NCBI GenBank assembly: GCA_021324115.1
Contig: JAJPJS010000027.1
Span: forward strand, 62,001-126,000
Length of the DNA stretch: 64,000 bases
Reading direction: 5' to 3'
DNA from: Nitrososphaerota archaeon
GTDB lineage: Archaea; Thermoproteota; Nitrososphaeria; Conexivisphaerales; DTJL01
Part shown: one piece after another, positions 36,469 to 59,283 of the stretch
How positions within the stretch are numbered: position 1 is the stretch's first letter
Layout of the letters: each line of letters starts with the position of its first letter
The notes under the pieces: generated by a model
Seen by the model: the letters and a program-made list of their open reading frames with translations, nothing else
Databases searched by the model: none
What the model was told of the DNA's origin: nothing
Translations under genes and position numbers: made by a program

Positions 36469-36575
36469 CGCCGAGGGTGAGATTTGAACTCACGAGTCCT
36501 TTCGGACACAGGCTCCCTGTGCCCGGCTCCAGGCTTGGGCCGTGTCTGCCCCCTACCAGGCTAGGGTACCTCGGC
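36469..36575 (-). tRNA. tRNA-Ser(GGA), class II, with two predicted short introns (36535..36545 and 36515..36526)
   Basis: Acceptor GCCGAGG/CCTCGGC, D-arm CCCTAGCCTGGTAGGG, variable arm GTCC-GAAA-GGAC, T-arm GTGAG-TTCAAAT-CTCAC. Removing 11+12 nt yields anticodon arm CAGGC-CTGGAGA-GCCTG; 84-nt mature tRNA. Confidence 0.85.
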
Positions 36576-36687
36576 ACGTTTCGGGAGTTATTTTATGCCG
36601 TATTAAAACCCTATTCAGCGCGATCTTTTCCAGCGAAGTTAGTTTGAACATGATTGAAGGTTCTGTAATCCTTTGGGGGTTCCTCAA

Positions 36688-37695
36688 TCATCTCGCGGAT
36701 GCGACCTCATGTTTCTTCCACCCCTGTGGATACGTTCCAGATGGCATGACTACACGATCGACCTTTGCGGCTATTCCATGGATGGCCTCTGCTAGTTGCA
36801 CAAAATCGAGATTCGAAGTGCCAAGGGCAACGAGTTCCCCCTTCTGAGTGTATATTGCGACATGGTCTCCCTTCTGAAGCTCCGGCATCACACGGGCAAT
36901 CCCTGGCACCGCCACCTGCGCCCCATGACACACTGCGTCCACCGCGGAATCCTTTATCACCAGAGCCTTCATGTGTGACAGTGCTCTTTCAATCGGCCAG
37001 AGTGTTTCGCGCAGCTGCTCCTCTGACCCCTTATCTCTGTAATGTCTGTACGATAATGCAAGCTCCTGAAGTCTTACAAACCCGTCCTTCTCTGAAATGT
37101 TACAAACCCTGGTTCTTCTGAGTTCAACCATTGTGGCACCGACCCCCAGAACCTCCCCCATGTCGTACACAAGCTTTCTGATGTAGGTCCCGGCTTCGCA
37201 TGTCACCCTAAGTAGTGCGAGGTTCCCGCTTCTTTCCACCAGTTCGATTTCGTATATTGTCCTCTTTCTTGTCACCCTCTTGACGCTTGAACGCTCCGGC
37301 GGCCTCTGGTAAATTTCCGATGTGAATTCAGAAAGCACGGACAGCAGTTCTCCTTCGGGCACGGGGCTGTGCAACCTCATGACAGCATGATATTCCTTGG
37401 GGCCCAGCAGCAATGTGCCAAGCGCCTTTGTGGCGTGATTGATCCCGATGGGCAGGAGGCCGGTCGCCATTGGGTCAAGCGTACCACTGTGACCCGCGGT
37501 CTCGACCTCGAGAAGCTTTCTCACCCATGCAACCACCTGATGGCTCAGCTGACCTCCTGGTTTGTCGAGTGGAATGAAACCATACTTTAACAGCTCGGGC
37601 ACCGGCCTCTGATCTGGCTGATGACCAAACTGTCCCTCAGACTCCTCCCCTATGACCTTCAGTCCGGCAAATATCTTATCTCTGAGCGAATTCAA
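36688..37695 (-). CDS. cbf5: tRNA/rRNA pseudouridine synthase Cbf5/TruB (with PUA domain)
   Basis: FIPLDKPGGQLSHQVVAWVRKLL..AGHSGTLDPMATGLLPIGI, EAGTYIRKLVYDMGEVLG. Confidence 0.95.
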   Translation of the reverse strand: MNSLRDKIFAGLKVIGEESEGQFGHQPDQRPVPELLKYGFIPLDKPGGQLSHQVVAWVRKLLEVETAGHSGTLDPMATGLLPIGINHATKALGTLLLGPKEYHAVMRLHSPVPEGELLSVLSEFTSEIYQRPPERSSVKRVTRKRTIYEIELVERSGNLALLRVTCEAGTYIRKLVYDMGEVLGVGATMVELRRTRVCNISEKDGFVRLQELALSYRHYRDKGSEEQLRETLWPIERALSHMKALVIKDSAVDAVCHGAQVAVPGIARVMPELQKGDHVAIYTQKGELVALGTSNLDFVQLAEAIHGIAAKVDRVVMPSGTYPQGWKKHEVASAR

Positions 37696-38267
37696 TCCAC
37701 AGCAGCCCGGTCCGTTACAAGTCTCACGTAATCGATGACTATCTGACTAACGGCCTCCGCATCGATCATCTCTGTATTCACCATCAGGTCGAAAACGGAA
37801 AGGTCCTTGTCGAAGTCGTACCCATACATCTTCTTATAAAGCTCGGCATTCTCGGTGTCCCTCATCTTGACAATTTTGAGGGCATCGCTTACGGGTATCT
37901 TGTCCCTTCTTGCCATCCTTCTGGCCCTCGTAGACTGGGAGCCCTTCAACCAGACCTTGATGCCACCCGGGTTCAGCCAGGGGATGGCGTAACTCGTGAT
38001 TATATGGTCCCCCTTTGCGACCAGCCCCTGAAGTCTTCTGTCAACTTCGAGGTCGTACTTGTAATCCTTTGCCCTTTCCCTTAGAAACTTCTGCCCTTCC
38101 TTTGTGTCCCACCACTCCTCTCCCCCAACCTTGTAACCCTGCTCCTTTGCCAGCTCCTTCAGCATGTCACCTCCCGACACGTATTTTACAGGGAGCCGCT
38201 TTGCGATTATCTTTGCCACGGTGGTCTTGCCCACGGCCGGTGGGCCGGATATCACGATTGTTTGCAT
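37692..38267 (-). CDS. cmk: Cytidylate kinase
   Basis: MQTIVISGPPAVGKTTVAKIIAKRL...YVSGGDMLKELA; start re-assigned to ATG at 38267. Confidence 0.92.
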   Translation of the reverse strand: MQTIVISGPPAVGKTTVAKIIAKRLPVKYVSGGDMLKELAKEQGYKVGGEEWWDTKEGQKFLRERAKDYKYDLEVDRRLQGLVAKGDHIITSYAIPWLNPGGIKVWLKGSQSTRARRMARRDKIPVSDALKIVKMRDTENAELYKKMYGYDFDKDLSVFDLMVNTEMIDAEAVSQIVIDYVRLVTDRAAVD

Positions 38268-38284
38268 GAAGCAGGGTTCACCCT

Positions 38285-38791
38285 TCATTGGATCGTTATG
38301 CTGGTGCCCATTATGCGACTGACTACAAGGTTGAACACAGTGTATGTGAGGAAATACCAGGAGAACAGTGTAAGGCCAAACCCTGAATGAAACGGTTGAA
38401 CGGCCGTGATGAGCAGCAGATTGAAGTTGTATGGGGAAACCGCGATGATCTTCGTGAAGCCGATCAGGTAGCCCAGTACGTAGTATATGCCGGTCAGAGG
38501 CAGAAGATATGAGAAGGACACCCTAAGCCGTTCCTTCTGAGCCTTTGTGTAGGGGTCCTGCACGCTCTTCATCTTCTTTTTGAGTTTATCCACCTTCGCC
38601 TGATCCCTTTCCCTCATGGCCTGTCTGTATTCCTTCATGAACGCGTTGTAATCTCTTGTCGCAATCCTCATCTGATTGACGTCAGTCTTCTTCAGTATTA
38701 CGAAGTTTGCGATGAAGCTGGCTATGGCCTCGATCGGCATGATGAATACTGTGACCAGAGGGTATGAGAGAAGGGAAGATAGGTCGAACAT
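38285..38791 (-). CDS. DUF106 / EMC3-TMCO1-like (YidC/Oxa1 superfamily) membrane protein
   Basis: Multi-TM 168 aa with cytosolic coiled-coil; conserved location between adk and cmk. Confidence 0.85.
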   Translation of the reverse strand: MFDLSSLLSYPLVTVFIMPIEAIASFIANFVILKKTDVNQMRIATRDYNAFMKEYRQAMRERDQAKVDKLKKKMKSVQDPYTKAQKERLRVSFSYLLPLTGIYYVLGYLIGFTKIIAVSPYNFNLLLITAVQPFHSGFGLTLFSWYFLTYTVFNLVVSRIMGTSITIQ

Positions 38792-38968
38792 ATCAGCAAC
38801 TCACACTCGGCTTATGCATCGCTCCCTGCCTGACACAGACATCTCCGGGCTCCGCTTGACTCTGAACCGGCGGAATATATCCGCAATGAACGCCTGCACC
38901 GTTTTCTGCAGCCACTCGCCCACCTGCCCGCAACACTGCTACACCCATCAACCCACTCAGTTATCAGT

Positions 38969-39550
38969 TTATTCGGCCCTTATCGTGCTCAGGAATTCCT
39001 TCATGGCCAGTTCTGCTCCGCTTTCTTCATTATTTATTATTTTCATGGGCGCCCCGGTTTCAGCGGATGCGATCACCATGAACTGCCTGGAAAGCTCGAG
39101 TTCGGCTTCTATGTCCTCGGGCCTTTCCTCATCTCTCTTTCTTGTAGGGTCATTGCGCCTCCGGCTGAGTATCGACTGCACGGCAGCCTGTATCATGACT
39201 ATGTGTGTCGGGTTCAGCGTCTTCAGAACCTCGATCGGGAGCCCTGGCCAGAATCCTTCGGGTGTCCTGATTACAAAGTGAGTGTCTATCAGGACGAAGT
39301 CTGCCTGCATGTCGTATATCTTCTTCGCAGCCTTCAGCTGCAGCTGCCTTTGAGTTTCCACAGGAAGAAACCTGAGCCTGTCCCTGTCTGAAACACCGAG
39401 TTTCTTGGCTTCATCCAGCATCACGGAGCCGAACACGACCAGAAGTACGCTCCTTGAAGATGCCCTTATCGATTCGGCTGCCCTGCTGAGGATCGTGGTC
39501 TTTCCGACTCCGGGAAGGCCACCGACCAGCACCCTGCTATGACCGGCCAA
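38969..39550 (-). CDS. adkA: Adenylate kinase (archaeal AdkA)
   Basis: VLVGGLPGVGKTTILSRA, VLIDTHFVIRTPEGFWPGLP, immediately downstream of secY. Confidence 0.92.
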   Translation of the reverse strand: MAGHSRVLVGGLPGVGKTTILSRAAESIRASSRSVLLVVFGSVMLDEAKKLGVSDRDRLRFLPVETQRQLQLKAAKKIYDMQADFVLIDTHFVIRTPEGFWPGLPIEVLKTLNPTHIVMIQAAVQSILSRRRNDPTRKRDEERPEDIEAELELSRQFMVIASAETGAPMKIINNEESGAELAMKEFLSTIRAE

Positions 39551-40976
39551 TCAAACCGCCCAGCCTTGGCATGAGTTCGTCCACCTGTTCCTTCACGAAT
39601 GTCTGGTAGTACTGGAGTATGATGTCTATCATCAGAAGGAGGCCTATACCCGAGCCACCAAACACACCCAGGACGCTCGATACGCTCGCGATCACCCCTA
39701 CAAGTATACCTCCGATTATGGTCACCGATGGGATGTACTTCGCAAGCACCATCCCGAGTGAATTCGTCGTGCTTCTGAAGCCGGGCACGACCACCTGTGC
39801 GTCGAGAAGGCTCTTGGCTGCCTTCTCCGGGGACATGCCGCCCAGCTCAACCCACAGCCGGGCGAAGATCACACTCATGAAGATCATGAAGGCGACGGAC
39901 GTGAGCGTCTGCAGAGGCTCCGTCGCAGCCTGGCCAAGTGATGTAGGCACGACAAGGTAGTACAGCAACCCTCCGGTCAGAACAGGCTGACCCCCCGACG
40001 CGCCGGAGGATGTGTAGGTGGCCAGAAGGTTGACAAGCCAGTTACCCGTGCCTGTTCCAAGCCTCGAAACAAGAAGTAAGGAGAAGAACTGCAGGTTGGC
40101 AATAAGTGCCCCCACAAGTATCACCGGTATGTTGCTTACGTAAAGAAGCTTGATCGGGTAGACGCCGGTGAATCCCTTGTACTTTTGCGAAGATATAGGT
40201 ACTTCTATCCTGACGCCTTCGAGGTATATTATGAAAAGCATCATGGCGATCGTCGCAATAAAACCGATCAGAGCCGGCTCTATCCCTCTGTATACGATCG
40301 TCGGAAGGGTTCCGGTAAGAGTCGCATTCACCGTCGCGGGGATGAACCCGACATATCCAACGCCACCAACGCTTATCGGGCTGAACAGGTCAAGCATGAA
40401 CCTGAGTGCGACGCCGGCCATGATGAAGAGGCTGATACCGCTGCCAAACCCCCAGCCTCTCTGAATCATCTGGTCAAGCATGAAAACCACCATGCTGGCG
40501 GCTATGAGTTCAAGCATCACGATTATGGCCGTCTCTGTGCTAAGTACCGCCCCGCTTGGCCCCCTGAGGTATCCGCTCAGGGTGTAGAGCACGGCCTCGG
40601 CTACTATGAAGCCAACCGTGAAAACCTTGTTGAAGGCAGTGAAGGTGGACCTGTCCTCAGGCTTTCCAAAGTCAAGTTTGATGAGTTCTGAACCCACAAG
40701 CAGCTGACTGATGAGGCCTGCGGTTACAATAGGGCCAATCCCTAACTCCATCAGGGAGCCCTGTGAGGAGGCGAATATCGTCCTCAGGAGAGAAGCCGAG
40801 TTGGCCTGGCTTCCTGCGGTCGAAACGCCGTAGAGCGGCACTTCAGACATAACTAGAAAGAGAACGAGGGCTATGGCGGTCCAGATGAATTTTTCTGTGA
40901 TTGAGGGCTTCCTGGTAGGTTTTGGGATTTCAGGAAGCACGGAGGCCGCGCCCCTGATTACATCACCTATGGCCAC
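39537..40976 (-). CDS. secY: Preprotein translocase subunit SecY
   Basis: 479 aa multi-TM; GIGPIVTAGLISQLLVGSELIKLD, GFRSTTNSLGMVLAKYIPSVTIIGG. Confidence 0.96.
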   Translation of the reverse strand: MAIGDVIRGAASVLPEIPKPTRKPSITEKFIWTAIALVLFLVMSEVPLYGVSTAGSQANSASLLRTIFASSQGSLMELGIGPIVTAGLISQLLVGSELIKLDFGKPEDRSTFTAFNKVFTVGFIVAEAVLYTLSGYLRGPSGAVLSTETAIIVMLELIAASMVVFMLDQMIQRGWGFGSGISLFIMAGVALRFMLDLFSPISVGGVGYVGFIPATVNATLTGTLPTIVYRGIEPALIGFIATIAMMLFIIYLEGVRIEVPISSQKYKGFTGVYPIKLLYVSNIPVILVGALIANLQFFSLLLVSRLGTGTGNWLVNLLATYTSSGASGGQPVLTGGLLYYLVVPTSLGQAATEPLQTLTSVAFMIFMSVIFARLWVELGGMSPEKAAKSLLDAQVVVPGFRSTTNSLGMVLAKYIPSVTIIGGILVGVIASVSSVLGVFGGSGIGLLLMIDIILQYYQTFVKEQVDELMPRLGGLIGRS

Positions 40977-40982
40977 TACTCT

Positions 40983-41414
40983 CTAAGCCCCCTCCACCCT
41001 TCCGCCCGCGGCTTCGAGCTTCGCCACCGCAGATTTTGTAGCTGCCCGAACCTTGACGACCACTGCCCTTTTGACCGAACCTCCTCCAAGCAGTTTTTCA
41101 ACACCCAGAGCAGTAAGGTCGATTACGGGAAGCCCGGAGTCTTTGTCACCTTCGATTGCACCGTTAGCCGTCGGCAGGTCGTCCAGTTGGGAGACGTTCA
41201 ACCACCTTTTTGTGCTGTTCGGGGAGGGAGGGACAAATCCATGGGAGCCAAAATAGTCCGGAGCATACTTGACCACCCAGCTCCATTTATGCTTGTGAAG
41301 ACCGGCCTTGCCGTATCCTCCCTTGGCACCATGCTTCCTGTGCTGTCCCACCTGCCCCCAGCCCAGGGTTCGGCCTCCCTTTCTCTTCCTCATCTTCCTG
41401 ATCCGTGTTGGCAT
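40983..41414 (-). CDS. rpl15: Ribosomal protein L15
   Basis: KRKGGRTLGWGQVGQHRKHGAKGGYGKAGLHKHKWSW. Confidence 0.95.
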   Translation of the reverse strand: MPTRIRKMRKRKGGRTLGWGQVGQHRKHGAKGGYGKAGLHKHKWSWVVKYAPDYFGSHGFVPPSPNSTKRWLNVSQLDDLPTANGAIEGDKDSGLPVIDLTALGVEKLLGGGSVKRAVVVKVRAATKSAVAKLEAAGGRVEGA

Positions 41415-41469
41415 TACCAGAACACCATTCCTGACCCGGGGGACACTTTTACCACCTTTCTGGCACCTC

Positions 41470-41934
41470 TTAAATCATTCGTTCAACGAGCTTTGGAAGC
41501 TCGGGGTTCTCGGCAAGCAGGCCTCCGGCTCCGTAGAACCTGTTGGCCGGTCTGGGATAACCTCCCCTGGGTGGGGCAAGGTTAAATGTGTGGAGAAACT
41601 TTTTCACTTCCCCCCACTTCACTTCTCCACCAAGCAACTTATCGGCGAGCTCCTCGGCACCATCAAATCCTGCTGCCTTGAAATCGTTCTGCGTGGGGCG
41701 TCTGCTCCCTGGGAGCCTAACCCTTTCATGGATAAGCTTCACAAGCAACTCCTTCTCCACCCTTGACCAGGCAACACTCGTCGCGGCCACCTTCAGCATT
41801 CCCAGTGTGGGTGGGTCGTCCTGAACAAGCGTCGCACTGTACTTGGTGTTCAATCCAAGGCGTCTCATGGACTCTGACGCCTCGGACCTAACATTCAGTG
41901 TGCCCCTGAGCCGCACAACAAGCAGTAGACCCAT
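41470..41934 (-). CDS. rpl30: Ribosomal protein L30
   Basis: VVRLRGTLNVRSEASESMRRLGLNTKYSATLVQDDPPTLGML; gene order. Confidence 0.93.
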   Translation of the reverse strand: MGLLLVVRLRGTLNVRSEASESMRRLGLNTKYSATLVQDDPPTLGMLKVAATSVAWSRVEKELLVKLIHERVRLPGSRRPTQNDFKAAGFDGAEELADKLLGGEVKWGEVKKFLHTFNLAPPRGGYPRPANRFYGAGGLLAENPELPKLVERMI

Positions 41935-41941
41935 TTTCCTG

Positions 41942-42574
41942 TCACCCGGTTGGCGTCAGAAGCTTGTACATATTCAGAAAAGCGTCGTATAGGGCGTTGG
42001 AGACTGAGGAGGGGGTGCTCGTCTTGCCGAATGTCACTGTCCAGCAGTCCTTTATTCCTGCGATACCAAGAAGACTCTTCAGTGTTTCGCCGGCAACGAG
42101 TCCCAGGCCCCTTGGTGCAGGAAGCACGGTCACCTTCACGCTTCCGCTTTTCCCTTCCAGTCTGAAGGGGACCGAATGGTTTGTTCCGCACCTGCATTCC
42201 CAGCTCCCGCAACCCTGAACGACAGGAATTATGTTAAGCATCGCAACCACGGTGGCCTTGTCGATGGCTGTCCTCATCTGGGGGGCCTTTGCGTGTCCCA
42301 CACCGAACCATCCGTCCTCCTCGCCGACAGCCACCACAGCCCTGAACCTGGTGAGCTCCCCTGCGTCCGTCTGTTTTTGGACTATACCAACTCCAACCAC
42401 ATAGCTCTTCAGATTTGGCAGAAGCGTCTTTACTATTTCGGGTTCTCTGATCTTCCAGCCATTTTCGAAAACTTCCTGAAGAGAAGTTACCTTCCCTCCT
42501 GCAACAAGCTGCCCCAGCTTGGTACGTGGAACCCAGGGGGGCGCTTCCTCTTCGTACCTCTGTCTACCACTCAT
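41942..42574 (-). CDS. rps5: Ribosomal protein S5
   Basis: WVPRTKLGQLVAGGKVTSLQEVF..., RFRAVVAVGEEDGWFGVGHAKAPQMRTAIDKA. Confidence 0.95.
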   Translation of the reverse strand: MSGRQRYEEEAPPWVPRTKLGQLVAGGKVTSLQEVFENGWKIREPEIVKTLLPNLKSYVVGVGIVQKQTDAGELTRFRAVVAVGEEDGWFGVGHAKAPQMRTAIDKATVVAMLNIIPVVQGCGSWECRCGTNHSVPFRLEGKSGSVKVTVLPAPRGLGLVAGETLKSLLGIAGIKDCWTVTFGKTSTPSSVSNALYDAFLNMYKLLTPTG

Positions 42575-42591
42575 GATCGATAATCACTCAC

Positions 42592-43206
42592 TCACTCACG
42601 CGTACCTGTACTTCCCTTTGCACCCTTCGCATCAATCTTCAGTATGGCCTCTTTCACTTCTTCGAAGTTTTTGCCCATCTCCTCAGGTGTGAGACCCTTT
42701 GAGATCAGCCTTCCAAACCTGCTGCCGTAAAGTTCAGAATTCGATTTCTTCAATTCGGCAGCGTAAGACGATATATGAACTCCCGAAAGTCTTTCTTCTG
42801 CAGGAAATGTTTGCTCGTCGACCCTCACCTTGAGGCCGCCGTCGAGTGCTCCCTTAACCAGGGCAGAAACCCTGGAGCCACTCCTGTATGCACTCAGGCC
42901 GGTGTAGAGTATTGCCTCTTCAACCCCGGCAGCCGCGGACCTCTTACCTAGCAGGAGGCCGGTGAGGTAGCAGGCCGGCAGGTTCTTGGTAGCGCCCTTC
43001 CATCCGAACTTGGGGAGCTGTGTCGAGCTTGCTGAAGCCAATGTCAGGTCCCCGCTAGGACCCGCCTTTATAAGCTGGGCGTAAACATTGTGTGATGAAA
43101 CGAAACTCCTGACAAAGCACAGTCTCGAGGTAATCAGTGCCCTGCGCTTCTTGTAATCAGTTTTACCTTCTCTTCTCCTCCTGAAAATGTCAATGTGTTT
43201 CTTCAA
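42592..43206 (-). CDS. rpl18: Ribosomal protein L18
   Basis: RRRREGKTDYKKRRALITSR...LPACYLTGLLLGKRS; gene order. Confidence 0.94.
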   Translation of the reverse strand: MKKHIDIFRRRREGKTDYKKRRALITSRLCFVRSFVSSHNVYAQLIKAGPSGDLTLASASSTQLPKFGWKGATKNLPACYLTGLLLGKRSAAAGVEEAILYTGLSAYRSGSRVSALVKGALDGGLKVRVDEQTFPAEERLSGVHISSYAAELKKSNSELYGSRFGRLISKGLTPEEMGKNFEEVKEAILKIDAKGAKGSTGTRE

Positions 43207-43215
43207 GACATCAGG

Positions 43216-43659
43216 TCACCTGCCGCTCTTTGCCTCCGCAATCAGTTCCTTCAGTCTCCTCAGAGTCCTGACGTCGCCACCCTTGACCTTGAGATAGAAC
43301 CTTTTGAATTCTACTGGAGAAAGCTCCCCCCTCTTTTTCATGAGCTTGAGGTAACCCCTGAGATGCCTCACCTGATTGACCCACGACCTTTTTCTTGGCG
43401 TTCTTGTGCTGTCTCTACCGCTCTTCGACCCCGGGCCCCTTCCGCGCCTGGAGCGCTTCTCCTTCGAAAGTTTTTTCCTTCCGCCGGATATTCCTTTTTT
43501 CTGCTCAGCCCAGATGTCGCCAGCCCTTATCAACTTCCTCATGTCATCCCTGGTCACTGCGTCGGACACCCTGTCCAGAGAGTCTGTGTGGAATCTTACC
43601 CTGGTCGTGCCGGCCTTGAGAAGCTTAGCTGCCATGGCCTTCCTGCTGGAGAGACTCAC
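43216..43659 (-). CDS. rpl19e: Ribosomal protein L19e
   Basis: SRKAMAAKLLKAGTTRVRF..., GRGPGSKSGRDSTRTPRKRSWVNQVRHLRGYLK. Confidence 0.95.
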   Translation of the reverse strand: MSLSSRKAMAAKLLKAGTTRVRFHTDSLDRVSDAVTRDDMRKLIRAGDIWAEQKKGISGGRKKLSKEKRSRRGRGPGSKSGRDSTRTPRKRSWVNQVRHLRGYLKLMKKRGELSPVEFKRFYLKVKGGDVRTLRRLKELIAEAKSGR

Positions 43660-44048
43660 TTTTCAGTCAGCCTCCCAGGGTTCAGCACTCTTATCCCCCT
43701 TTCCTTTGCCAATCTGACGATCTCCCTCCTCTTGTTTCTTCCTACAGTTGAACCGATTCTCACGGCGCTGGTCTTCCGGTCAACCCCCTCCAGCTGCGCA
43801 GGGTTCTCTACCCTCACCTCTCTCAGACCGGAAGGATGCAAACCTCGCAAAGACGAAGGAGTTCCGTAACCGACCCGCACCAGAGGGGGGCTTCCTTTCA
43901 TGCTCAATCTCACCTTGTGGTCTATTCCCTTCGGCTTCCTCCAGTTGGGCTTGAGCCTCTTGTATCTCCAGCTCTCGGGTCTCATGAAGGCAGGTTTACT
44001 TGACTTCATTCGAGCTGCCTTCTCTATTCTGTCGCCTCTTTCACTCAA
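43656..44048 (-). CDS. rpl32e: Ribosomal protein L32e
   Basis: FMRPESWRYKRLKPNWRKPKGIDHKVRLSMKG..VRVGYGTPSSLRGLHPSG. Confidence 0.95.
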   Translation of the reverse strand: MSERGDRIEKAARMKSSKPAFMRPESWRYKRLKPNWRKPKGIDHKVRLSMKGSPPLVRVGYGTPSSLRGLHPSGLREVRVENPAQLEGVDRKTSAVRIGSTVGRNKRREIVRLAKERGIRVLNPGRLTEK

Positions 44049-44054
44049 TGAATT

Positions 44055-44636
44055 TTACCCCTCCACAGCCTTCCTCTTGTATATGTAAACACCGTCTAAA
44101 AAGACCCGCTGGTCCTTCTTCTTTACTCTGGTAGAGTTCTCTATGTTCGCAGCCGTTTGGGCAACGCCTTCAAGAGAAGGACCAGATACGACGATGTCAT
44201 CCCCTTCGCTTTTGACGGTTGTTCCTTCCCCGACTATCCTGGCCACCCTCGGGGACCTTTCACCGTAGAAATTCTCGAGGTGCACCTCGCCATTTTGAAC
44301 CTTGACCGTTATGGGAAAATGGGCAAAAACCACCTTGAGTCTGTAGTTGAAGCCTTCCCTCACCCCCTTGAACATGTTTTCGACGTGGCTCCTGCAGGTG
44401 CTGAGTATCGCCCTGTCCATCTTCTTCTTCCTGTATGCGCTCAGCACAACCTTCCCTTCCCTAACAGACACGCCAACAGGGATCTTTGAAAAGTTCCTGC
44501 TCACCGTGCCCTTTGGTCCCTTCACCTGCAGGGTTTTCTCCGAGAGTGATACAGTCACTCCCTCCGGAGGAGAGAGCTCCACCTCCTGAAATGGCTTCAG
44601 TGCGTTCTCAGTAGACATAACCAAGTAACCTCCCAC
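44055..44636 (-). CDS. rpl6: Ribosomal protein L6
   Basis: VELSPPEGVTVSLSEKTLQVKGPKGTVSRNF...MFKGVREGFNYRLKVVFAHFPI. Confidence 0.94.
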   Translation of the reverse strand: MGGYLVMSTENALKPFQEVELSPPEGVTVSLSEKTLQVKGPKGTVSRNFSKIPVGVSVREGKVVLSAYRKKKMDRAILSTCRSHVENMFKGVREGFNYRLKVVFAHFPITVKVQNGEVHLENFYGERSPRVARIVGEGTTVKSEGDDIVVSGPSLEGVAQTAANIENSTRVKKKDQRVFLDGVYIYKRKAVEG

Positions 44637-45000
44637 CCAGCCCGTTTTCCACGGCCTCCGTGTGACTCATGACGCCTTTGCTTGTGCTGACGACAAGCAT
44701 GCCCACGTTTACCGCCGGCAGGTATCTGCGCTCCCACAGGTAGTATGTTTTCAGTGAAACAGGATACCTGGGCGTTATAGACCCGCACTTTGTTATCCTG
44801 CCCAGCAGCTGAACTCGAAGCTTTCCCCTTATCCCGTCGTCTATGTACTCAAATTCTCCTATGTACTTGCCCTTCTGCATCACCCTGAGCACCTCCTGGG
44901 CAAGCTTGGACGCAGGTATCACAAGACACTCCTTCTTGTTCCTGAGCTCGTTGTTGTACACCGTGGAGAACAGGTTTGGTAAAACAGCAGTTGCTCCCAT
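44608..45000 (-). CDS. rps8: Ribosomal protein S8
   Basis: GRITKCGSITPRYPVSLKTYYLWERRYLPAVNVGMLVVSTSKGVMSHTEA. Confidence 0.95.
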   Translation of the reverse strand: MGATAVLPNLFSTVYNNELRNKKECLVIPASKLAQEVLRVMQKGKYIGEFEYIDDGIRGKLRVQLLGRITKCGSITPRYPVSLKTYYLWERRYLPAVNVGMLVVSTSKGVMSHTEAVENGLGGRLLGYVY

Positions 45001-45015
45001 CGATCACTCAACTCC

Positions 45016-45180
45016 TCACTCGAACTTCTTGAAACCCATCTTGGGTGCGACCTCCCTGAAGCACTGTCTGCACAGCATGAGGTTATACTTCTGAATCACG
45101 GGGCCGAACTGGCCGCAGCGTCTGCAGGGCCTGGCTCCCTTCCCGAATTTCCTAGATTTTCCATGCCTAATCTTGACCAT
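45016..45180 (-). CDS. rps14: Ribosomal protein S14 (zinc-ribbon type); missed by the ORF track because it is only 54 aa
   Basis: Manual translation: [54 protein letters not shown]. Confidence 0.95.
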
Positions 45181-50602: not shown

Positions 50603-50986
50603 CTACTTCAACGGAACGTAGAGAGAACTCCTGCTGGCACCTATACCGGGTGTGCCGTGCACAACCTTCTTTATCGGCGACGCATACTCTCCGAGGTAAT
50701 GACCCACCATTTCTGGTTTGATTTCAACCGTCGTGAACTCCTTTCCGCTATATACATCGATCGACATTCCGACCATGAACGGCAGTATGACCATATCCCG
50801 GGCGTGCGTTCTTATTCGTCCCTCCTTTGCGCTTCTCACCCTTTCGATGAGCTTCTTCTTCTCATGGCTGAGCTCTCTGTTTAGGGACCGTCTCTGGCGT
50901 GAGGGCATTAGGTCGAGAACCTGCTCAAGGGGCATCTCCTGGAGCTGTTCCATCGTCCTTCCCCGATATCTGAATTCACGTGGCAT
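50603..50986 (-). CDS. rps19: Ribosomal protein S19
   Basis: [32 protein letters not shown]..., [30 protein letters not shown]. Confidence 0.95.
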
Positions 50987-51015
50987 TCTGCTTCATGACC
51001 TCCTTGCCTGACTTA

Positions 51016-51765
51016 TTATCGTTTCTGTTCAACCGTTTCCCTGCTTATTACTCTGCCTCTTCCCGTCTTTCTCGGAGCTATGTGACCCACCTTTCGTCCA
51101 GGAGGCGTATTCCTAGCAGTAGAAGTTGATTTGCCTGGATGCTGATGCCTTCCACCTCCGAAGGGATGATGCACTACGGCCATCGCTATTCCCCTCACAG
51201 TAGGATAGCTCTTGTTTCGGGATATCATGTATCTCTCTCTTGCACCGGCCGTGAGAAAGGGCTTCTCCGTTCTTCCACCTGAAGCGATCGTGCCCACGGT
51301 TGCCCTTCCCCTGGAATCCATGAAAAGGCTCTTTCCGGATGGCAATCTTACAACGGTGGTGGAGCCTGCCTGAGAGAATACAATTGCTCCGCATCCGGAA
51401 GTCCTCACCATCCTTCCCCCATCCCCATAGACTGATTCTATGTTGCTGACGGTTGTTCCTTCGGGGATTCTGGACAATGGCAGTATATTACCGGTAGATG
51501 CTGGTGCTTCTGGTCCGATCATTACCTCACCGCCCTGGGCAAGGCCGGCAACGGCCGGAACGAAGAATTTCTTGCCATCCGGCATGATCAATCTGGCGAG
51601 CGGCGCACCGCGGCCTCTCTCATGGAATATGGATTCCACAAGAGCTGAAACGGTTTGGGTATGTGGCAGACGGGGATATGAAACCGGAGCAACCTTCCCC
51701 TTTTTCGGTGCCAACCACTGCAGCCCGGCTTTACCTCTTCTTCTGACAAGTATTCTCTTTCCCAA
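51016..51765 (-). CDS. rpl2: Ribosomal protein L2
   Basis: GKRILVRRRGKAG..., VRGIAMAVVHHPFGGGRHQHPGKSTSTARNTPPGRKVGHIAPRKTGR. Confidence 0.96.
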   Translation of the reverse strand: MGKRILVRRRGKAGLQWLAPKKGKVAPVSYPRLPHTQTVSALVESIFHERGRGAPLARLIMPDGKKFFVPAVAGLAQGGEVMIGPEAPASTGNILPLSRIPEGTTVSNIESVYGDGGRMVRTSGCGAIVFSQAGSTTVVRLPSGKSLFMDSRGRATVGTIASGGRTEKPFLTAGARERYMISRNKSYPTVRGIAMAVVHHPFGGGRHQHPGKSTSTARNTPPGRKVGHIAPRKTGRGRVISRETVEQKR

Positions 51766-51780
51766 TTTACCATCACCCTA

Positions 51781-52047
51781 CTAGAGGACTCCCAACCTCG
51801 AAGCCAGCTCAGAAGCAGGTGTGTCCGTTGTGAATGTCACATATGCCTTTTTGCCTGTCGAGGTTCGGAGTGTATTCACGTCGGCCACCTTTACGTCATA
51901 CATCAGCTCTATTGCCCTCTTGACCTGAGATTTAGTAGCCTCATCACTCACCATGAATACCATCTTGTTCTGCTTTTCGATCAGCGCAAAGGTTTTTTCA
52001 GTAACGTAGGGCATCCTTATTATGTGGTAAGCCTCTTCAAAATCCAA
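51781..52047 (-). CDS. rpl23: Ribosomal protein L23
   Basis: PYVTEKTFALIEKQNKMVFMVSDEATKSQVKRAIELMYDVKVADVNTL. Confidence 0.95.
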   Translation of the reverse strand: MDFEEAYHIIRMPYVTEKTFALIEKQNKMVFMVSDEATKSQVKRAIELMYDVKVADVNTLRTSTGKKAYVTFTTDTPASELASRLGVL

Positions 52048-52056
52048 TCCGACTCA

Positions 52057-52848
52057 TCACGCTCCTCTTTCAGAAAATCTTTCCTTCAACGATGTAAGGG
52101 CCGAGTTCGTAAAGATACAGAGTCTTCCAGGAACCCCTCCCGGCGCGAGGTCAAGAAGGCTCAGGTCCGTCGCCTTTACCACCTCAACACCCGGGAAGCT
52201 TCCGGCCGCTCTTGAAATCCCCTTGTCATCCGCAACGACGATCAAAGGGCCTCTTCCCACCCTTTTGGCCCTTCCCCTCCAGGCTGACCGGCCTCCCCTT
52301 CTTTTTCTTCCCGTGGTCCGGCGGACATCGTCCAAAACGCCAACTTTATCAAAAAACTTCCTCAGCTCGACTGCCTTTGTAACCCCCTCCAGAGAATCGT
52401 CGGCGATGATCGGAACCAACCTGTCGTCAGGAACCCTGTGGCCCCTTGAAACGACGAAATCTCTCGAGGCAACCGAACCCAATGCAGAAAGAAAAGCGAC
52501 CCTTCTTTCCTTTGAATTGATGCCCAGTCTAACCACCTTTTCAGACTTTGGGGGCATCGCAAGTCTTCCCTTGACAACCCCGCCCACACCAGCTGCCTGT
52601 CCCGACCGTTGGGTGCGTTCGCCTTTGACCCTTGCAGGACGAGCGACGCCCCTACCAGTATTCCATGACATTGCACTAGTTCTTTCTCCGGCGAAGGGGT
52701 CGGTACCTTTCTTTTGCAGAGAGTGGGTATGGAGGAGCCAGAATGCGCGCTTTATCAGACGCAGGTTGACGGGGGTCGAGAATGTATCCGGTAATTCGAC
52801 CTTTGAAACTTCGCCCCCTTCAAGGTCAAAAACAGGGAATGACATCAC
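52057..52848 (-). CDS. rpl4: Ribosomal protein L4
   Basis: MSWNTGRGVARPARVKGERTQRSGQAAGVGGVVKGRLAMPPKSEKVV. Confidence 0.95.
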   Translation of the reverse strand: MMSFPVFDLEGGEVSKVELPDTFSTPVNLRLIKRAFWLLHTHSLQKKGTDPFAGERTSAMSWNTGRGVARPARVKGERTQRSGQAAGVGGVVKGRLAMPPKSEKVVRLGINSKERRVAFLSALGSVASRDFVVSRGHRVPDDRLVPIIADDSLEGVTKAVELRKFFDKVGVLDDVRRTTGRKRRGGRSAWRGRAKRVGRGPLIVVADDKGISRAAGSFPGVEVVKATDLSLLDLAPGGVPGRLCIFTNSALTSLKERFSERGA

Positions 52849-53828
52849 GCAACCACCTTCGTAGGTCTGGAACTCACGTATATCAGCTGTGGCGCCTTGG
52901 GCTGTCTTACCCGCGCCCTCACGGGTTGGCGAATGATGACTGGCCTTCTGAACGGGCCTGGAATCGATCCCTTAAGGACGAGATAATCACCCTTCACTAC
53001 GCCAAAGTGAGGGAACCCGCCTGCAGGGGTGACTGGTGTCTCCTTCTCGTTACCCAGCGCCATGATTTTGTGGTTGTACTCAACTCTCTGATGGAATCCC
53101 TTCTGACCCGCCCTTGCGACGGTGTACATTACATCGTGAGGATGCCAGGGCGAAAGAACACCAACTGCCCTTACACTTTTCCTCGATTTGTGTTGCTTCC
53201 TCTTCACGCCGAATCTTGTAATGGGACCCTCGAATCCCTTACCCTTCGATACGGATGCAACGTCAACCATCTGGCCGGGTTGAAGTTGCTTATGTGCTTG
53301 AACCTTCTTCCCGAGATTTCCCAGCGCGAACTCGAGTCTTTCCTCCAGACTCCCACCCACGACGGGGACCTCGAAAAGAATTGAACTCTTCTGCTCGAGT
53401 CCTGCTTCCGAAGGTTTAACCGAAATTATAACAAACACGTCACTTGCACCGCCAACCAGCTTTCCAAAAGAATCCAGCTGCTCCTTCGAAGGTGCGGCAC
53501 CCTCCTTTGTTACGTTGATATCCTTAAGCACAGAACGCCTTCCATCTGCTTCTTGATACAGGCGAACACCTGTGACCAATCCATCAGAAACGGAAAGCAC
53601 TGTCGCGGGAACAAAAAGCGGTTTGCCAAAGTTGGGTGTCTTCTCCCTGTCATCCACGGTTACGAGATGGATCATGCCTACCTTGAAGCCGACGAAGCCG
53701 CCTAGAGAAGGTGAAGATGATTCGGGGCGAGACCATGCCCTGACGCGGGGGATCAGACCATGAGCCCGGCTACGTGGATAGTATGCAAGAGAACCTCTTC
53801 TTGGTGCGCTGTGTTTTCTGTGACCCAT
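52845..53828 (-). CDS. rpl3: Ribosomal protein L3
   Basis: PRRGSLAYYPRSRAHGLIPRVRAWS..., GFVGFKVGMIHLVTVDD, VDVASVSKGKGFEGPITRFGVKRKQHKSRKS. Confidence 0.96.
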   Translation of the reverse strand: MGHRKHSAPRRGSLAYYPRSRAHGLIPRVRAWSRPESSSPSLGGFVGFKVGMIHLVTVDDREKTPNFGKPLFVPATVLSVSDGLVTGVRLYQEADGRRSVLKDINVTKEGAAPSKEQLDSFGKLVGGASDVFVIISVKPSEAGLEQKSSILFEVPVVGGSLEERLEFALGNLGKKVQAHKQLQPGQMVDVASVSKGKGFEGPITRFGVKRKQHKSRKSVRAVGVLSPWHPHDVMYTVARAGQKGFHQRVEYNHKIMALGNEKETPVTPAGGFPHFGVVKGDYLVLKGSIPGPFRRPVIIRQPVRARVRQPKAPQLIYVSSRPTKVVA

Positions 53829-54164
53829 AACCCATGCATTCCGCTGGACACGCCCAGTCAGAACCTAATAAAAAGTTATCTGGGCAAAAATGGGCCAATT
53901 GTCCTTCTTGGCTTCAGCGGGTGAAGCTGCATATGATTAATGTGTGGGACCATAATTGTTTTTGGGATGAGACCGGAATAACGGAGCCAAGAGCTTCGGC
54001 GATGGAAGCGGCCTAGAACAATGTACGAAAGGTAATCTGATGCCGCTCACCCGGTTGCATGATTTATGACGCAATGAACCTCTGGATGACAGGGATAGGG
54101 CATGAACTTCTGGAAAAACACGTATTGAAAATGATAAAAGAAAGTCCGTTATCTTACCTATTCT

Positions 54165-55706
54165 ATGACAACTAAAGAAAAGATGAACCTGAAACTCGGA
54201 CCCCTGTTTCAGGACTGTTTCACGGTTCAGGAGAATGTGACTGTATTCAAGCTGCTCGCGGATGGAAGATGGCTTGAAGCGAATCCCCCTAAACTATTGA
54301 ATGTTGTTTCCCCGATTGATGGGTCAATCGTAGCCGCGGTTCAGGCCGCATCTCCAGCCGATGTGGACTTCGCTGTGAAGGCGGCACATGAAGCAAGAAG
54401 AAGGATACGGGACATACCGGCGATAGACAGGATAGATATGCTCAACAGAGCCCGCCACATCATCCGGGATCATATGGATGAATTCGTCAATGCGCTTGTA
54501 CTCGAATCGGGAAAGACGGTCGTTTCTGCGCAGGCCGAAGTGATGGCCGCGCTCAATAGAATAAAGATGACAATGGAGGAGGCAAGGAGCATTTTTGGAG
54601 AGTACGTTCCTGGAGACTGGTCAGAGGACACCATGGCGAAATTTGCCTTGGTGATCAGGGAACCAATCGGAGTTATTGCATGCGTGTCACCATTCAATTA
54701 TCCACTTTTTTCGATGGTTGCTAAAGTAGTGCCCGCGATCGTATCAGGAAATTCGGTCGTGATGAAGCCTTCCTCGGATGATCCTATTCAGGCCATAATG
54801 CTTGCACGGGTGCTTCAGGAATCGGGCCTGCCGCAGGGTGTCGTAAATCTGGTCACGGGAAAGGGGGGAGAGGTGGGTGACACACTTGTGGGTCATGAAC
54901 TAGTGGGCATGGTTACCCTGACTGGGAGTACCGAAACCGGACGACATGTTGCCTCTCTTACCGGAATGAAGAAGGTGCACCTAGAACTGGGTGGAAAAGG
55001 CGCAGCGATCGTTACAGCAAGTGCGGATCCAATCCTTGCCGCAAAGAAGGTTCTGGAAGGTTGCTTCAAATTCTCCGGGCAGAGGTGTGATGCGATCTCG
55101 AGAGTCCTTGTCGATAAAAGCGTAAAGGAGATGTTCATGAAGGAATTATTGAAGGAGTATGAAGGATGGAGGCTGGGTAACCCCAGGGACGCCTCAGTGA
55201 ACATGGGCCCGCTCATAAATGAAAGAGCGGCTGAAAGGGTTCAGAAGTTAGTGGATGATGCAGTTTCCAAAGGAGCAGCACTTGTAAAGGGCGGAAGGCA
55301 CAAAGGCACCTACTTTGAACCCACAATATTGGATTCGGTTCCGCTGAATGCGAGCATAGCCTGGGAAGAAACGTTTGGTCCTGTGGTTACACTTATCGAT
55401 GTCTCCGGTGTGGACGAAGCGATCGAAATAGTGAATCGCTCGAAGTATGGCCTTGATTCCTGTGTGTTCACGAATGATTTCTACACGGCGTGGAAGGTTG
55501 CAAAGGCCCTCCAGGAGGGTTCCGTCACAATCAATGATGCACCGTCTCACGGGGTAGGCTACTTTCCATTCGGCGGAAACAAGGATTCAGGAATTGGCAG
55601 GGAAGGGGTTGGATACAGCATAGATGAGATGACACGAATCAAGACGATTTCGTTCAATCTGCTGCCTGGCGGGTTGGGTAAAACCCGGAAGACTCCAAGG
55701 ATGTAA
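54165..55706 (+). CDS. Aldehyde dehydrogenase family, probable non-phosphorylating glyceraldehyde(-3-phosphate) dehydrogenase (GapN-like)
   Basis: 513 aa; PIGVIACVSPFNYPLFSMVAKVVPAIVSGNSVVMKPSSDDP, LELGGKGAAIV, FSGQRCDAISRVLV. Confidence 0.8.
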   Translation: MTTKEKMNLKLGPLFQDCFTVQENVTVFKLLADGRWLEANPPKLLNVVSPIDGSIVAAVQAASPADVDFAVKAAHEARRRIRDIPAIDRIDMLNRARHIIRDHMDEFVNALVLESGKTVVSAQAEVMAALNRIKMTMEEARSIFGEYVPGDWSEDTMAKFALVIREPIGVIACVSPFNYPLFSMVAKVVPAIVSGNSVVMKPSSDDPIQAIMLARVLQESGLPQGVVNLVTGKGGEVGDTLVGHELVGMVTLTGSTETGRHVASLTGMKKVHLELGGKGAAIVTASADPILAAKKVLEGCFKFSGQRCDAISRVLVDKSVKEMFMKELLKEYEGWRLGNPRDASVNMGPLINERAAERVQKLVDDAVSKGAALVKGGRHKGTYFEPTILDSVPLNASIAWEETFGPVVTLIDVSGVDEAIEIVNRSKYGLDSCVFTNDFYTAWKVAKALQEGSVTINDAPSHGVGYFPFGGNKDSGIGREGVGYSIDEMTRIKTISFNLLPGGLGKTRKTPRM

Positions 55707-55844
55707 TTTAAGTTCACTCCGTTGTAATTTACTTAGAAGCTTGGTGAAGCGGTGATTGATTGTAGGATTCAAATCGACATGTTAAACCCAAAAAGGGGGT
55801 AAAGCATTTAAAGAATTTAAGCAAGTGAACTTTTTCGCTTTCGA

Positions 55845-56426
55845 GTGGCATCGAGCACAACTGGGCTTGAAAGTGTATTTCCTTCTTACGTGCGTAACCT
55901 GCTGATGGGCAGCTTTCTTGTGGGTATGCTCCCGATCGTGGCACTGATAGCGGCCCTAGGCATTCACAGCATGTATCTCTTGGAGTTCGATCATGTGTTC
56001 ACGGGTGGCACTTGGACGGGTATAGACATCTTCATGGGAGTTGTGCTGACACGGATAATGAGAGTGATGGACGTGCCTTCGCGCGTCGAGGTTGCAAAAC
56101 GGCTCACGCCTGCAACATTTTTCATAATGCCATCCCTTTCGGCAACTGCGATAACTTCGGGGATATACCTCGCAGAAGAATTGGGGAAGTTTGATCTCCA
56201 TTCGCCTTGGATAATCGCTGCGGGGATTGTCGTGATTATATTAACCGCACAGGGGTTCGGTATATTCATGCCAAACGGCTTGAGAATATTTCTAGAGCTC
56301 TCAAAGGCAAAGCCTGATACTCAAAAGATAGCCAGACTGAACATGATAAACATCCGACTTGCTGGCAGCCAGGCATTATTCCAGGTGATAATAATCCTGA
56401 TAATGGCCCATTTGGCGGTGTATTAG
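55845..56426 (+). CDS. Multi-TM membrane protein (CopD/DUF2269-like?)
   Basis: 193 aa with several hydrophobic segments; family assignment tentative. Confidence 0.6.
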   Translation: MASSTTGLESVFPSYVRNLLMGSFLVGMLPIVALIAALGIHSMYLLEFDHVFTGGTWTGIDIFMGVVLTRIMRVMDVPSRVEVAKRLTPATFFIMPSLSATAITSGIYLAEELGKFDLHSPWIIAAGIVVIILTAQGFGIFMPNGLRIFLELSKAKPDTQKIARLNMINIRLAGSQALFQVIIILIMAHLAVY

Positions 56427-56479
56427 TTGACCTGTGATAACCTTAGTAGAAGGAGTTTTTTAGGAGGAAATAAGCCAAG

Positions 56480-56677
56480 TTGAATGTTGGCGCGCTTGCG
56501 GCTACGCTGGTATTCTTCGCTTTACTATCTATCGTATACATTGCATTGTTCGTATCTGCAAGGAGGAGTGTTGTGAGAGGCGAGATGAAGCCCGGGGGTC
56601 CGAGACTTCTGGGTTGGGCGTTTGTCGGGAGTTCCATCCTCTTTGTGTTGCTCGCGCTCACCGCATTCCTTGTTTGA
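56480..56677 (+). CDS. Small two-TM membrane protein
   Basis: 65 aa, MNVGALAATLVFFALLSIVYIALFVSARR...LLGWAFVGSSILFVLLALTAFLV; same strand just after the preceding membrane-protein gene. Confidence 0.55.
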   Translation: MNVGALAATLVFFALLSIVYIALFVSARRSVVRGEMKPGGPRLLGWAFVGSSILFVLLALTAFLV

Positions 56678-56739
56678 AATTAACGCAGTAGTCTCCTTTT
56701 CTAAAACGGTTCAGCTTTTAAACCGGCTGAAGGACGCTT

Positions 56740-57699
56740 TTGAATGGTACATCCATGCTGAAGGTTATAATAGATACGGACACCGCGGGAGATGACACCA
56801 CGGCTCTTATGCTTGCACTGAGAAGCTCAAACGTCAGGGTCGAGGCAATCACAATTAATTGCGGAAACGTGGCGTTCGACCAGCAGGTTGAAAATGCGCT
56901 TTACACTGTGGAGCTTTCTGGTAATTCCGGACGGGTGCCCGTGTATCCTGGGGCTAGAAGACCCTTGTTAAGGGACTGGCAAACCGTCGAAGAAGTTCAT
57001 GGGAAGGATGGCATGGGGAACTCATTCTTTCCAAAGGCAAGGCAGCGGCCAGAAGAGAAGCATGCCGTGGATGCCATGATCGAATCGATTAACAAGAATC
57101 CAAACGAGGTGACCGTCATCGAACAGGCGCCCATGACAAATCTGGCCATGGCCATCAGAAAGGATCCGGAGATCGTCAGGAAGATCAGACGGGTATACTT
57201 TATGGGTGGAACAAATCAGTATCTTGGCAATGTTACGCCTGCAGCCGAATTCAATATCTGGGTCGACCCGGATGCCGCCAAGATAGTGTTCCATTCAGGG
57301 GTGAATCTGACTATGGTCGGCTGGGAGATATGTATGAAGTACGGCCTGCTGATGCCTGACGAGATTGCGGAGATTGAGAGTCTGCACACTAAAGAATCCG
57401 ATTTCTTCATCAAGGTCAACTCGGTGGCAAGAGAATTTCTGAAAAAGAGCACGGGCATAGACGCCATACCCTGCCCTGACAGTATCACAGTGGCCATGGT
57501 TCTTGATCCTTCGATCGCGACTTCCGTTAAGAAAAGGTATGTCGATGTAGACAACCAAAGTGAAATCAGCAGGGGAGCCACTTGGGTGGATGAACTCGCG
57601 GTATGGTCAAAAAAACCGAATATGGAAGTCGTCTATGAAGCATCCAAGAGTAAGTTCCGCTCACTCCTCATGAAAATGCTGAAGGGCCAAACGATCTGA
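56740..57699 (+). CDS. Inosine/uridine-preferring nucleoside hydrolase family
   Basis: KVIIDTDTAGDDTTALMLAL, GAMGG-like YFMGGTNQYLGNVTPAAEFNIWVDPDAA; probable ATG start at 56755. Confidence 0.92.
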   Translation: MNGTSMLKVIIDTDTAGDDTTALMLALRSSNVRVEAITINCGNVAFDQQVENALYTVELSGNSGRVPVYPGARRPLLRDWQTVEEVHGKDGMGNSFFPKARQRPEEKHAVDAMIESINKNPNEVTVIEQAPMTNLAMAIRKDPEIVRKIRRVYFMGGTNQYLGNVTPAAEFNIWVDPDAAKIVFHSGVNLTMVGWEICMKYGLLMPDEIAEIESLHTKESDFFIKVNSVAREFLKKSTGIDAIPCPDSITVAMVLDPSIATSVKKRYVDVDNQSEISRGATWVDELAVWSKKPNMEVVYEASKSKFRSLLMKMLKGQTI

Positions 57700-57906
57700 A
57701 GTTGCTCTCAAGTGCGTTATAAAAAGGTCGGAGGTCAGATCAGTGCCCAGGAAATCAGGTTAGGTGGCGGAAAACATCAAGATAAAACAGCCAAAATCAG
57801 CGGACCGTCATCTGAATTGAAAGGATTAAAGTGGTTTATGTGGATTAGAAGTCATGCTGGACCTACCTACAAGCGAGTATTTCGTTCGCTGGGTAAAATC
57901 TTGTAA

Positions 57907-58659
57907 TCATTCTGCCAGTGCAATGAGGTCATCAGCAAGTTCCACAGGCTTGGTGATCATTGGCCAATGGCCTGTTTCGATCACTTTGCTTGGACCATTT
58001 AGCTTGCCCCACTTACCCGCCAGGATTTCATCCACAGGGTCGCCCGACAGACTGCAGAAAATGTAGGCTTCCTTTGACGGACCGTAGTTCGAAGACAAAG
58101 CTATCGGGTCATTTGCGAGTTTGACTGGCCAGGGAGTAGCCCTGGACATCAGCCACTCTCTTTTGGGACCTACAACATCCTTACCGATCCTGTTTATGAT
58201 ATCCTCTGTGAGGGGGATGGAGTAGCTGCCTGTTTGAAGAGGACCGAATTCGAGAGTAGGGTCAAATCTGCCCTGAGGTTTATGAGTAGCCTCTGGTCTG
58301 AATGCATCGAGGTAGATAACTTTCTTCACCTTGTCATGCGCACGATCGGCAACTGAAGCGGCTACCTTTCCTGCGAAGCTGTGGCCCACCAGGACAAAAT
58401 CATCAACGTCGTTGTACTTGACCGCGTTGAGGACGTCCATTATGGCAGTTTCCATTCCCACATAAGGTGTGGCCAGATGGACTCTTTCTGCCATACCAGT
58501 CAATGTGACTGGATAGGATCGAATGCCTCTCTTTTCAAGAGAGGAAACCACGTCTCGCCATGCCCAGGCTCCGAGCCAGGCGCCTGGCACAAGTACAAAA
58601 TCCGTCATTGTTTGAATTTTTCGTGCCAAGCTACTTAAAGATTCGTTTGTCCGCCACAA
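57907..58659 (-). CDS. Alpha/beta hydrolase
   Basis: FVLVPGAWLGAWAWRDVVSSLEKRG..., FVLVGHSFAGKVAASVADRA. Confidence 0.88.
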   Translation of the reverse strand: MWRTNESLSSLARKIQTMTDFVLVPGAWLGAWAWRDVVSSLEKRGIRSYPVTLTGMAERVHLATPYVGMETAIMDVLNAVKYNDVDDFVLVGHSFAGKVAASVADRAHDKVKKVIYLDAFRPEATHKPQGRFDPTLEFGPLQTGSYSIPLTEDIINRIGKDVVGPKREWLMSRATPWPVKLANDPIALSSNYGPSKEAYIFCSLSGDPVDEILAGKWGKLNGPSKVIETGHWPMITKPVELADDLIALAE

Positions 58660-58675
58660 ATTTAAAACTAATTAA

Positions 58676-58768
58676 TGGGCCGGGGGAGATTTGAACTCCT
58701 GACCTCGTGATTATCAGTCACGCGCTTTGGCCGCCAATTAGGCCCTAACCATGCTGAGCTACCGGCCC
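58676..58768 (-). tRNA. tRNA-Ile(GAT) with an 18-nt intron in the D-arm (58727..58744)
   Basis: GGGCCGG/CCGGCCC acceptor; CGTGA-CTGATAA-TCACG anticodon arm; D-arm restored to GCTC-AGCATGGTTA-GAGC after excising GGCCTAATTGGCGGCCAA. Confidence 0.93.
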
Positions 58769-59191
58769 TGTTTCGTGGCCAATTCGGCGTGGTTATAAGA
58801 ATTTGTCCTCGTAAATCTGCTGTTCGTCCATCGCTTCGCTTAAATTGGGTAAGGCATGATTCAGGTGACGAAATGATGCAACAGATGCAAAATTCCTTAT
58901 CTAGACAATGATAAGTACGAAGCTATATTGGCTTCGAGGAGGTTAGTTTTATTACTCAAGGAGGCACAAGACGCCTGATGACTGGGAGAAATGTCCTATT
59001 TGCTGATCCCGAAACCGGGTATGATCACTCTGAGAGTAGATTCATGGTCGCTCCAACTCATTTACAAAAGGGCACTTGCAAGGCGCGGAAGTGATAAACT
59101 CGTCCTCTTCTGCCTGACATAGATTGCACCCGTTTTTGCATCTGAGTTACGATTAATCCTTTTTAATGCGAAAGTTAAACGGTCAAATGCC

Positions 59192-59283
59192 GGGCTGGTA
59201 GTTCAGCGGTAGTAACGCCCGCCTTGCACGCGGGAGGTCGCGGGAGACCTCTGGGTCCGCGAATTCGAGTCCCGCCCAGTCCA
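59192..59283 (+). tRNA. tRNA-Ala(TGC) with a 19-nt intron in the T-arm (59245..59263)
   Basis: GGGCTGG/CCAGTCC acceptor; CCCGC-CTTGCAC-GCGGG anticodon arm; T-arm restored to GCGGG-TTCGAGT-CCCGC after excising AGACCTCTGGGTCCGCGAA. Confidence 0.95.

Follow-up and report, generated by a model that had tools for sequence, protein, structure and literature searches.

The window analysed here is a 64,000-nucleotide stretch (positions 62001-126000 of contig C27) of G000, a 2.14-Mb genome assembled in 27 contigs, 95% complete. The host belongs to the Nitrososphaeria (Thaumarchaeota), kin of the ammonia-oxidising archaea. The window contains three transfer RNA (tRNA) genes, for Ser, Ile and Ala, in which we recognize four short putative introns flanked by archaeal bulge-helix-bulge (BHB) motifs or relaxed variants of them. 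The genes and introns are given below with the evidence for them, where "solver" denotes our own intron search, "shuffles" its randomized control and "sister" the comparison with G001, a genome of the sister genus.

36469..36575, minus strand: tRNA-Ser(GGA) gene with a type II variable arm and two introns (solver, shuffles, sister comparison, folding z-score −3.4)
36535..36545, minus strand: tRNA-Ser intron 1, position 29/30, 11 nt, ACACGGCCCAA; BHB without an inner helix
36515..36526, minus strand: tRNA-Ser intron 2, canonical position 37/38, 12 nt, CCGGGCACAGGG; 3′ junction GGG^A
58676..58768, minus strand: tRNA-Ile(GAT) gene with one intron (Rfam, barely; solver; same intron site in G001)
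58727..58744, minus strand: tRNA-Ile intron, position 22/23, 18 nt, GGCCTAATTGGCGGCCAA; BHB, 3′ junction CAA^A
59192..59283, plus strand: tRNA-Ala(TGC) gene with one intron (ARAGORN, Rfam, solver)
59245..59263, plus strand: tRNA-Ala intron in the T arm, position 53/54, 19 nt, AGACCTCTGGGTCCGCGAA; BHB, 3′ junction GAA^T

A first-pass annotation of the window had described four introns of 11-19 nt in these three tRNAs, and the solver recovered the same coordinates and sites. It had also pointed out that three of the four 3′ junctions have the form AA^N, which they do (CAA^G at tRNA-Ser 29/30), with tRNA-Ser 37/38 as the exception. Its description of all of the introns as non-canonical applies to three of them, the second tRNA-Ser intron being at the canonical position. 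The BHB at tRNA-Ser 29/30 has four central, four outer and no inner pairs, and that at tRNA-Ser 37/38 has three of the four central pairs; the tRNA-Ile motif has four central, one outer and three inner pairs, and the tRNA-Ala motif four central, no outer and four inner pairs. When the three window pre-tRNAs were folded thermodynamically, the z-scores were supportive for Ser (−3.4) and Ile (−2.3) and not for Ala (−0.95). In G001 the mature tRNA-Ser(GGA) and tRNA-Ile(GAT) are identical to those of G000 and have introns at the same sites that are only 55-62% alike, whereas the tRNA-Ala(TGC) ortholog is intron-free.

Throughout this analysis, tRNA loci were sought with Rfam model RF00005, with patterns for the T arm and the D arm, and with BLAST, for which three tRNAs from a relative served as queries; introns were placed with a home-made solver that cuts only where a BHB is possible and then scores the spliced cloverleaf. 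By construction, the solver demands at least three of the four central pairs for each accepted intron, and it requires that the type of variable arm match the anticodon, which keeps the type II arms of Leu and Ser from being counted as introns. When it was run on both strands of 40 stretches, the two real tRNAs present reached scores above 100, and nothing else exceeded 61.4. We also compared real scores with those of 100 randomized sequences per gene, in which the 5′ side of the acceptor stem and the 3′ end were fixed and the remainder was dinucleotide-shuffled. The real score was greater than that of every shuffle in all six genes tested, including Ser (104.6, with a shuffle maximum of 87.8), Ile (98.2 and 73.8), Ala (96.9 and 70.3), Asn (118.4 and 80.7) and the Lys gene of G001 (129.2 and 75.8). 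The presence of a BHB or relaxed variant at every accepted junction is given by the search itself, and support beyond chance comes from the shuffles and the sister comparison. ARAGORN returned the expected anticodon for all 46 spliced G000 sequences, indicating a standard cloverleaf after excision. Applied to the unspliced window, ARAGORN found only Ala when introns were disallowed and misread Ser as a Gly-CCC tRNA with a 25-nt intron when they were allowed, while RF00005 found Ala, barely found Ile and missed Ser. Standard finders miss or misname such genes, so that tRNA annotation in these genomes is probably incomplete.

The first-pass annotation proposed that non-canonical introns extend genome-wide, and a survey of all G000 tRNAs bears this out. 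Thirty of 46 genes are interrupted, by 48 introns of 11 to 63 nt at 18 positions, 15 of them at the canonical 37/38 site and 33 elsewhere. Sixteen genes have one intron, 11 have two, two have three (Asn and Tyr) and one, tRNA-Lys(UUU), has four; the other 16 have none. An AA 3′ end is found in 23 of the 48 introns. The annotation had also raised missing, split or permuted tRNAs, but none was found in a search for all 46 isoacceptors, each of which is contiguous in cis. The resulting density is 1.04 introns per tRNA gene; published values are 0.84 in Thermoproteales and 0.21 across 217 archaeal genomes, and Pyrobaculum calidifontis has 71 introns in 46 tRNA genes (PMC8450103). In G004, a genome of the same order as G000, a hand count gave ∼15 introns in 13 genes.

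Other loci were encountered in the survey. Two candidate 3′ halves of split genes (L038 and L040) were rejected as such and are the Leu-CAA and Leu-TAA genes, with two introns each, and a sequence with an Asp-like anticodon (C2:104975) was rejected as a tRNA, its best score being 54. The tRNA-Gly(CCC) gene (L025:1501-1575) has a mismatched T stem (GCGGC against CCCGC) that is base paired in G001, which is either a sequence error or a sign of a decaying gene. The tRNA-Trp gene (L037, plus strand, locus 1263-1425) has a 63-nt intron at 37/38 that is 86% conserved in G001. Like the Trp intron of G004, this intron contains GGATGAAGA and a segment complementary to the anticodon loop. It may be a box C/D guide; an Rfam search of it returned no known guide RNA. 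Tyr and Gln-CTG also have long introns, which are 80-82% conserved relative to G001.

The gene with the most introns was examined across several genomes, among which G002 and G003 are two species of one genus in the same family as G000, and G000, G001 and G003 represent three genera of this family.

G000 C19:134030-134168, minus strand: tRNA-Lys(UUU) gene with four introns, at 30/31, 37/38, 48/49 and 59/60 (explicit splice, match to G001)

For the G000 gene the solver, bound by its limit on candidates, gave a solution with three introns, and the four-intron splice was built explicitly (template score of 94). The same four sites are interrupted in G000, G001 and G003, with intron lengths, in site order, of 17, 15, 17 and 16 nt in G000, 40, 14, 32 and 15 nt in G001, and 16, 15, 16 and 17 nt in G003. 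The mature tRNA is the same letter for letter in G000 and G001 and differs by one base in G003. Given the agreement of three assemblies, an artefact of assembly is unlikely. Elsewhere, tRNA-Lys(UUU) has one intron in G002 (at 22/23), two in G005, one in the sampled members of family f4 and none in G004. Among 400 genomes of the class, the combination of 30/31 and 37/38 introns matched only G000, G001 and G003, using an exon-strict pattern that distant cases could escape. Reviews and the tRNAscan-SE 2.0 paper put the upper limit at three introns in one tRNA (PMC4033280, PMC8450103), and no four-intron archaeal tRNA was found in the literature searched, which left out most subscription papers. 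The gene also differs within a genus: G003 (L366) has the four introns, and G002 (L367) has the single one together with a different acceptor and T stem, as if its gene had been replaced.

In all three four-intron genomes, the anticodon stem of tRNA-Lys is interrupted by the 30/31 intron, so that the outer helix of the 37/38 BHB has a single pair before splicing and five pairs after the other introns are removed. A comparable change is seen in tRNA-Ser(GGA), where the outer helix at 37/38 grows from two pairs to five only once the 29/30 intron is out. From this growth we predict that splicing is ordered; dependence on splicing order has been described for two- and three-intron genes (PMC8450103).

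G000 has two divergent EndA genes that score above the Pfam cut-off for PF01974. The product of the first, EndA-alpha (L001:1462-2004, 180 aa), has the Aeropyrum pernix alpha subunit as its best match in the PDB, aligned end to end (E 3.4e-47), and a fold search against the same subunit gave 45-46% identity and TM scores of 0.88-0.90. The catalytic triad (Y119, H127 and K158) is present and does not vary among 11 aligned relatives. A KPKG sequence at residues 38-41 aligns to KPRG of 3p1z, which is K44-P45-R46 of the crenarchaea-specific loop (CSL) of A. pernix; K38 and P39 are invariant in the 11 relatives, and the structure model has an unstructured loop at this point. The CSL motif in alpha subunits consists of a lysine, then P or V and K or R (PMC12397907), and the lysine is needed for broad specificity (PMC6379350, PMC12397907). 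EndA-beta (L002:1213-1791, 192 aa) has the EndA fold but lacks both the catalytic His and the loop motif. Its gene lies immediately downstream of rtcB in G000 (L002:19-1791), G001 and G002; in the other sampled families, no rtcB was detected in the part of the flank that was captured. When the EndA homologs are classified by architecture and specificity loop, as the first-pass annotation suggested, the G000 enzyme is predicted to be an (alpha-beta)2 type with a catalytic alpha and a degenerate beta. The homomeric euryarchaeal types (alpha4, alpha'2) go with a single type of EndA gene, and G000 has two.

The observed gene structures and their conservation, the two enzyme subunits with their motifs and the rtcB gene beside endA-beta belong, very probably, to a system in which pre-tRNAs contain archaeal BHB introns, unusually many of them in one family of Nitrososphaeria, that are cut by an (alpha-beta)2 endonuclease, for which we infer the cleavage, the ligation, their order and the assembly state. 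In such a system the pre-tRNA would fold a BHB or relaxed variant at each intron and the heterotetrameric endonuclease would cut both bulges, its alpha subunit supplying the Tyr-His-Lys triad and a CSL-type lysine loop that would relax substrate choice, after which RtcB would join the exons. Where introns are closely spaced, the one at 29/30 or 30/31 would leave first and that at 37/38 next, because only then could the anticodon stem that frames the 37/38 BHB form. Most introns would already have been in place when the family split into genera; a few would have come or gone afterwards, and tRNA-Lys(UUU) would have accumulated four.

The first-pass annotation considered the window genes euryarchaeal-looking, and the host would accordingly be a euryarchaeon whose splicing endonuclease is of an unexpected type. 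Ribosomal proteins, aIF-2 and an archaeal GltX are indeed present, but these are pan-archaeal. In a scan of the collection with G000 EndA-alpha, every record that named a lineage was from Nitrososphaeria/Thaumarchaeota, and the nearest named relatives were metagenome-assembled genomes of this group. Of 61 genomes drawn from across the class, 52 have at least two EndA matches. The host is thus not a euryarchaeon, and we regard this explanation as extremely improbable. What remains of the proposal is that a heteromeric enzyme of broad specificity is predicted; it is not unexpected, however, because Thaumarchaeota have already been assigned alpha2beta2 enzymes as well as non-canonical introns (PMC3218864, PMC4090602).

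If the inserted segments were instead left unspliced, some of the loci would be pseudogenes or would encode tRNAs with unusual loops, and weak motifs such as that at tRNA-Ser 37/38 would be in keeping with this. Yet no further copies were found of the essential isoacceptors that the interrupted loci encode, and the tRNA-Ala insert is absent from its ortholog in the sister genus. Moreover, mature tRNAs are on average 96.4% identical between G000 and G001, nearly invariant, while introns at the same position are only 63.5% identical, and this combination of conserved mature tRNA and diverging inserts reads as the signature of spliced introns. We consider it very unlikely that the segments remain in the RNA. 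Somewhat less remote, although still unlikely, is a recent burst of intron transposition within G000, as reported for Thermoproteales. The high density would fit such a burst, as would five introns that G000 has and G001 lacks, including that at tRNA-Ala 53/54, and to this extent the recent expansion raised by the first-pass annotation is upheld. However, 40 of the 45 comparable introns (the three of Asn were left out) share their position with another genus of the family, G001, and similarity between introns of different genes is not in excess (4 pairs, compared with 4.7 in shuffles). Because of these common positions, most of the intron load appears to be older than the genera, and a minority of introns to have been gained or lost more recently.

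Several points weigh against excision by an (alpha-beta)2 enzyme as set out above. The solver is home-made, a few introns could be placed in more than one way (Asp 15/16, Phe 24/25 and Leu 21/22), and in several BHBs either the outer or the inner helix is missing. EndA-beta is best matched, by both sequence and fold, by the alpha4 enzyme of Methanocaldococcus jannaschii and not by a crenarchaeal beta, and the predicted heterotetramer is based on homology. The excision and ligation of the G000 introns are predicted from DNA sequence, and the genome itself is a 27-contig, 95% complete assembly.

G000 resembles the Thermoproteales in having short BHB introns at many positions, several per gene, and a (predicted) (alpha-beta)2 endonuclease. 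It differs in lineage, in the four introns of its tRNA-Lys, where the published maximum is three (PMC8450103, PMC4033280), and in not showing the similarity between introns of different genes that is reported for Thermoproteales (PMC4033280). Introns in the D, V and T arms are shared with Caldiarchaeum subterraneum (PMC3293823) and other Thaumarchaeota (PMC8450103), and Leu-UAA and Thr-GGU have multiple introns both in G000 and in C. subterraneum/Thaumarchaeota. In C. subterraneum 13 of 45 tRNAs are interrupted, three of them by multiple introns (PMC3293823), whereas G000 has 30 of 46 interrupted, three- and four-intron tRNAs and no split tRNA fragments that we could find. The endonuclease is like the (alpha-beta)2 enzyme of A. 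pernix (3P1Z/3AJV; PMC6379350, PMC12397907) in the end-to-end alignment of alpha, the catalytic triad and the K-P-K/R motif at the CSL, but the G000 beta is longer (192 aa compared with 170) and is closer in sequence and fold to M. jannaschii alpha than to the A. pernix beta. We regard the system as one of a known kind, in which the four-intron tRNA and a Thermoproteales-level intron load in Nitrososphaeria are new.

Further features of the genome lie outside this system. In the window, a gene for aIF-2 (9314-12637, minus strand) contains an intein that splits the GTPase region, with its N-terminal motif at residues 21-112 and its C-terminal motif at 513-534, and genes for a TruB/PUA (Cbf5-type) pseudouridine synthase and a cytidylate-kinase-like protein (36688-37695, minus strand) are located just upstream of tRNA-Ser(GGA). 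A 31-nt stretch comprising the 3′ end of tRNA-Pro(CGG) and a few further bases, CGGTTCAAATCCGCCCGGCCCCATGCCAAAA, occurs at four contig ends:

L184 (start of C4): copy of CGGTTCAAATCCGCCCGGCCCCATGCCAAAA
L187 (end of C7): copy of CGGTTCAAATCCGCCCGGCCCCATGCCAAAA
L018 (end of C20): copy of CGGTTCAAATCCGCCCGGCCCCATGCCAAAA
L197 (end of C21): copy of CGGTTCAAATCCGCCCGGCCCCATGCCAAAA

These copies look as if elements had integrated in tRNA-Pro(CGG) and duplicated their attachment sites, where the assembly broke.

With moderate confidence, we propose that tRNA-Lys(UUU) is the most interrupted tRNA gene described, with four sites fixed in three genera, diverging introns and an obligatory order in which 30/31 would precede 37/38, and that a load like that of the Thermoproteales was reached independently, alongside a family-specific rtcB-endA-beta pair. 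The highest intron number published for a tRNA, three, is thereby raised to four, and very high tRNA-intron density is now found in Nitrososphaeria, beyond the Thermoproteales. The tRNA-Lys genes form a natural series, in which three genomes share four interrupted sites with diverged introns and relatives have between zero and two introns; it is suited to tests of how introns accumulate, of whether splicing order is obligatory and of whether a CSL-bearing endonuclease permits it.

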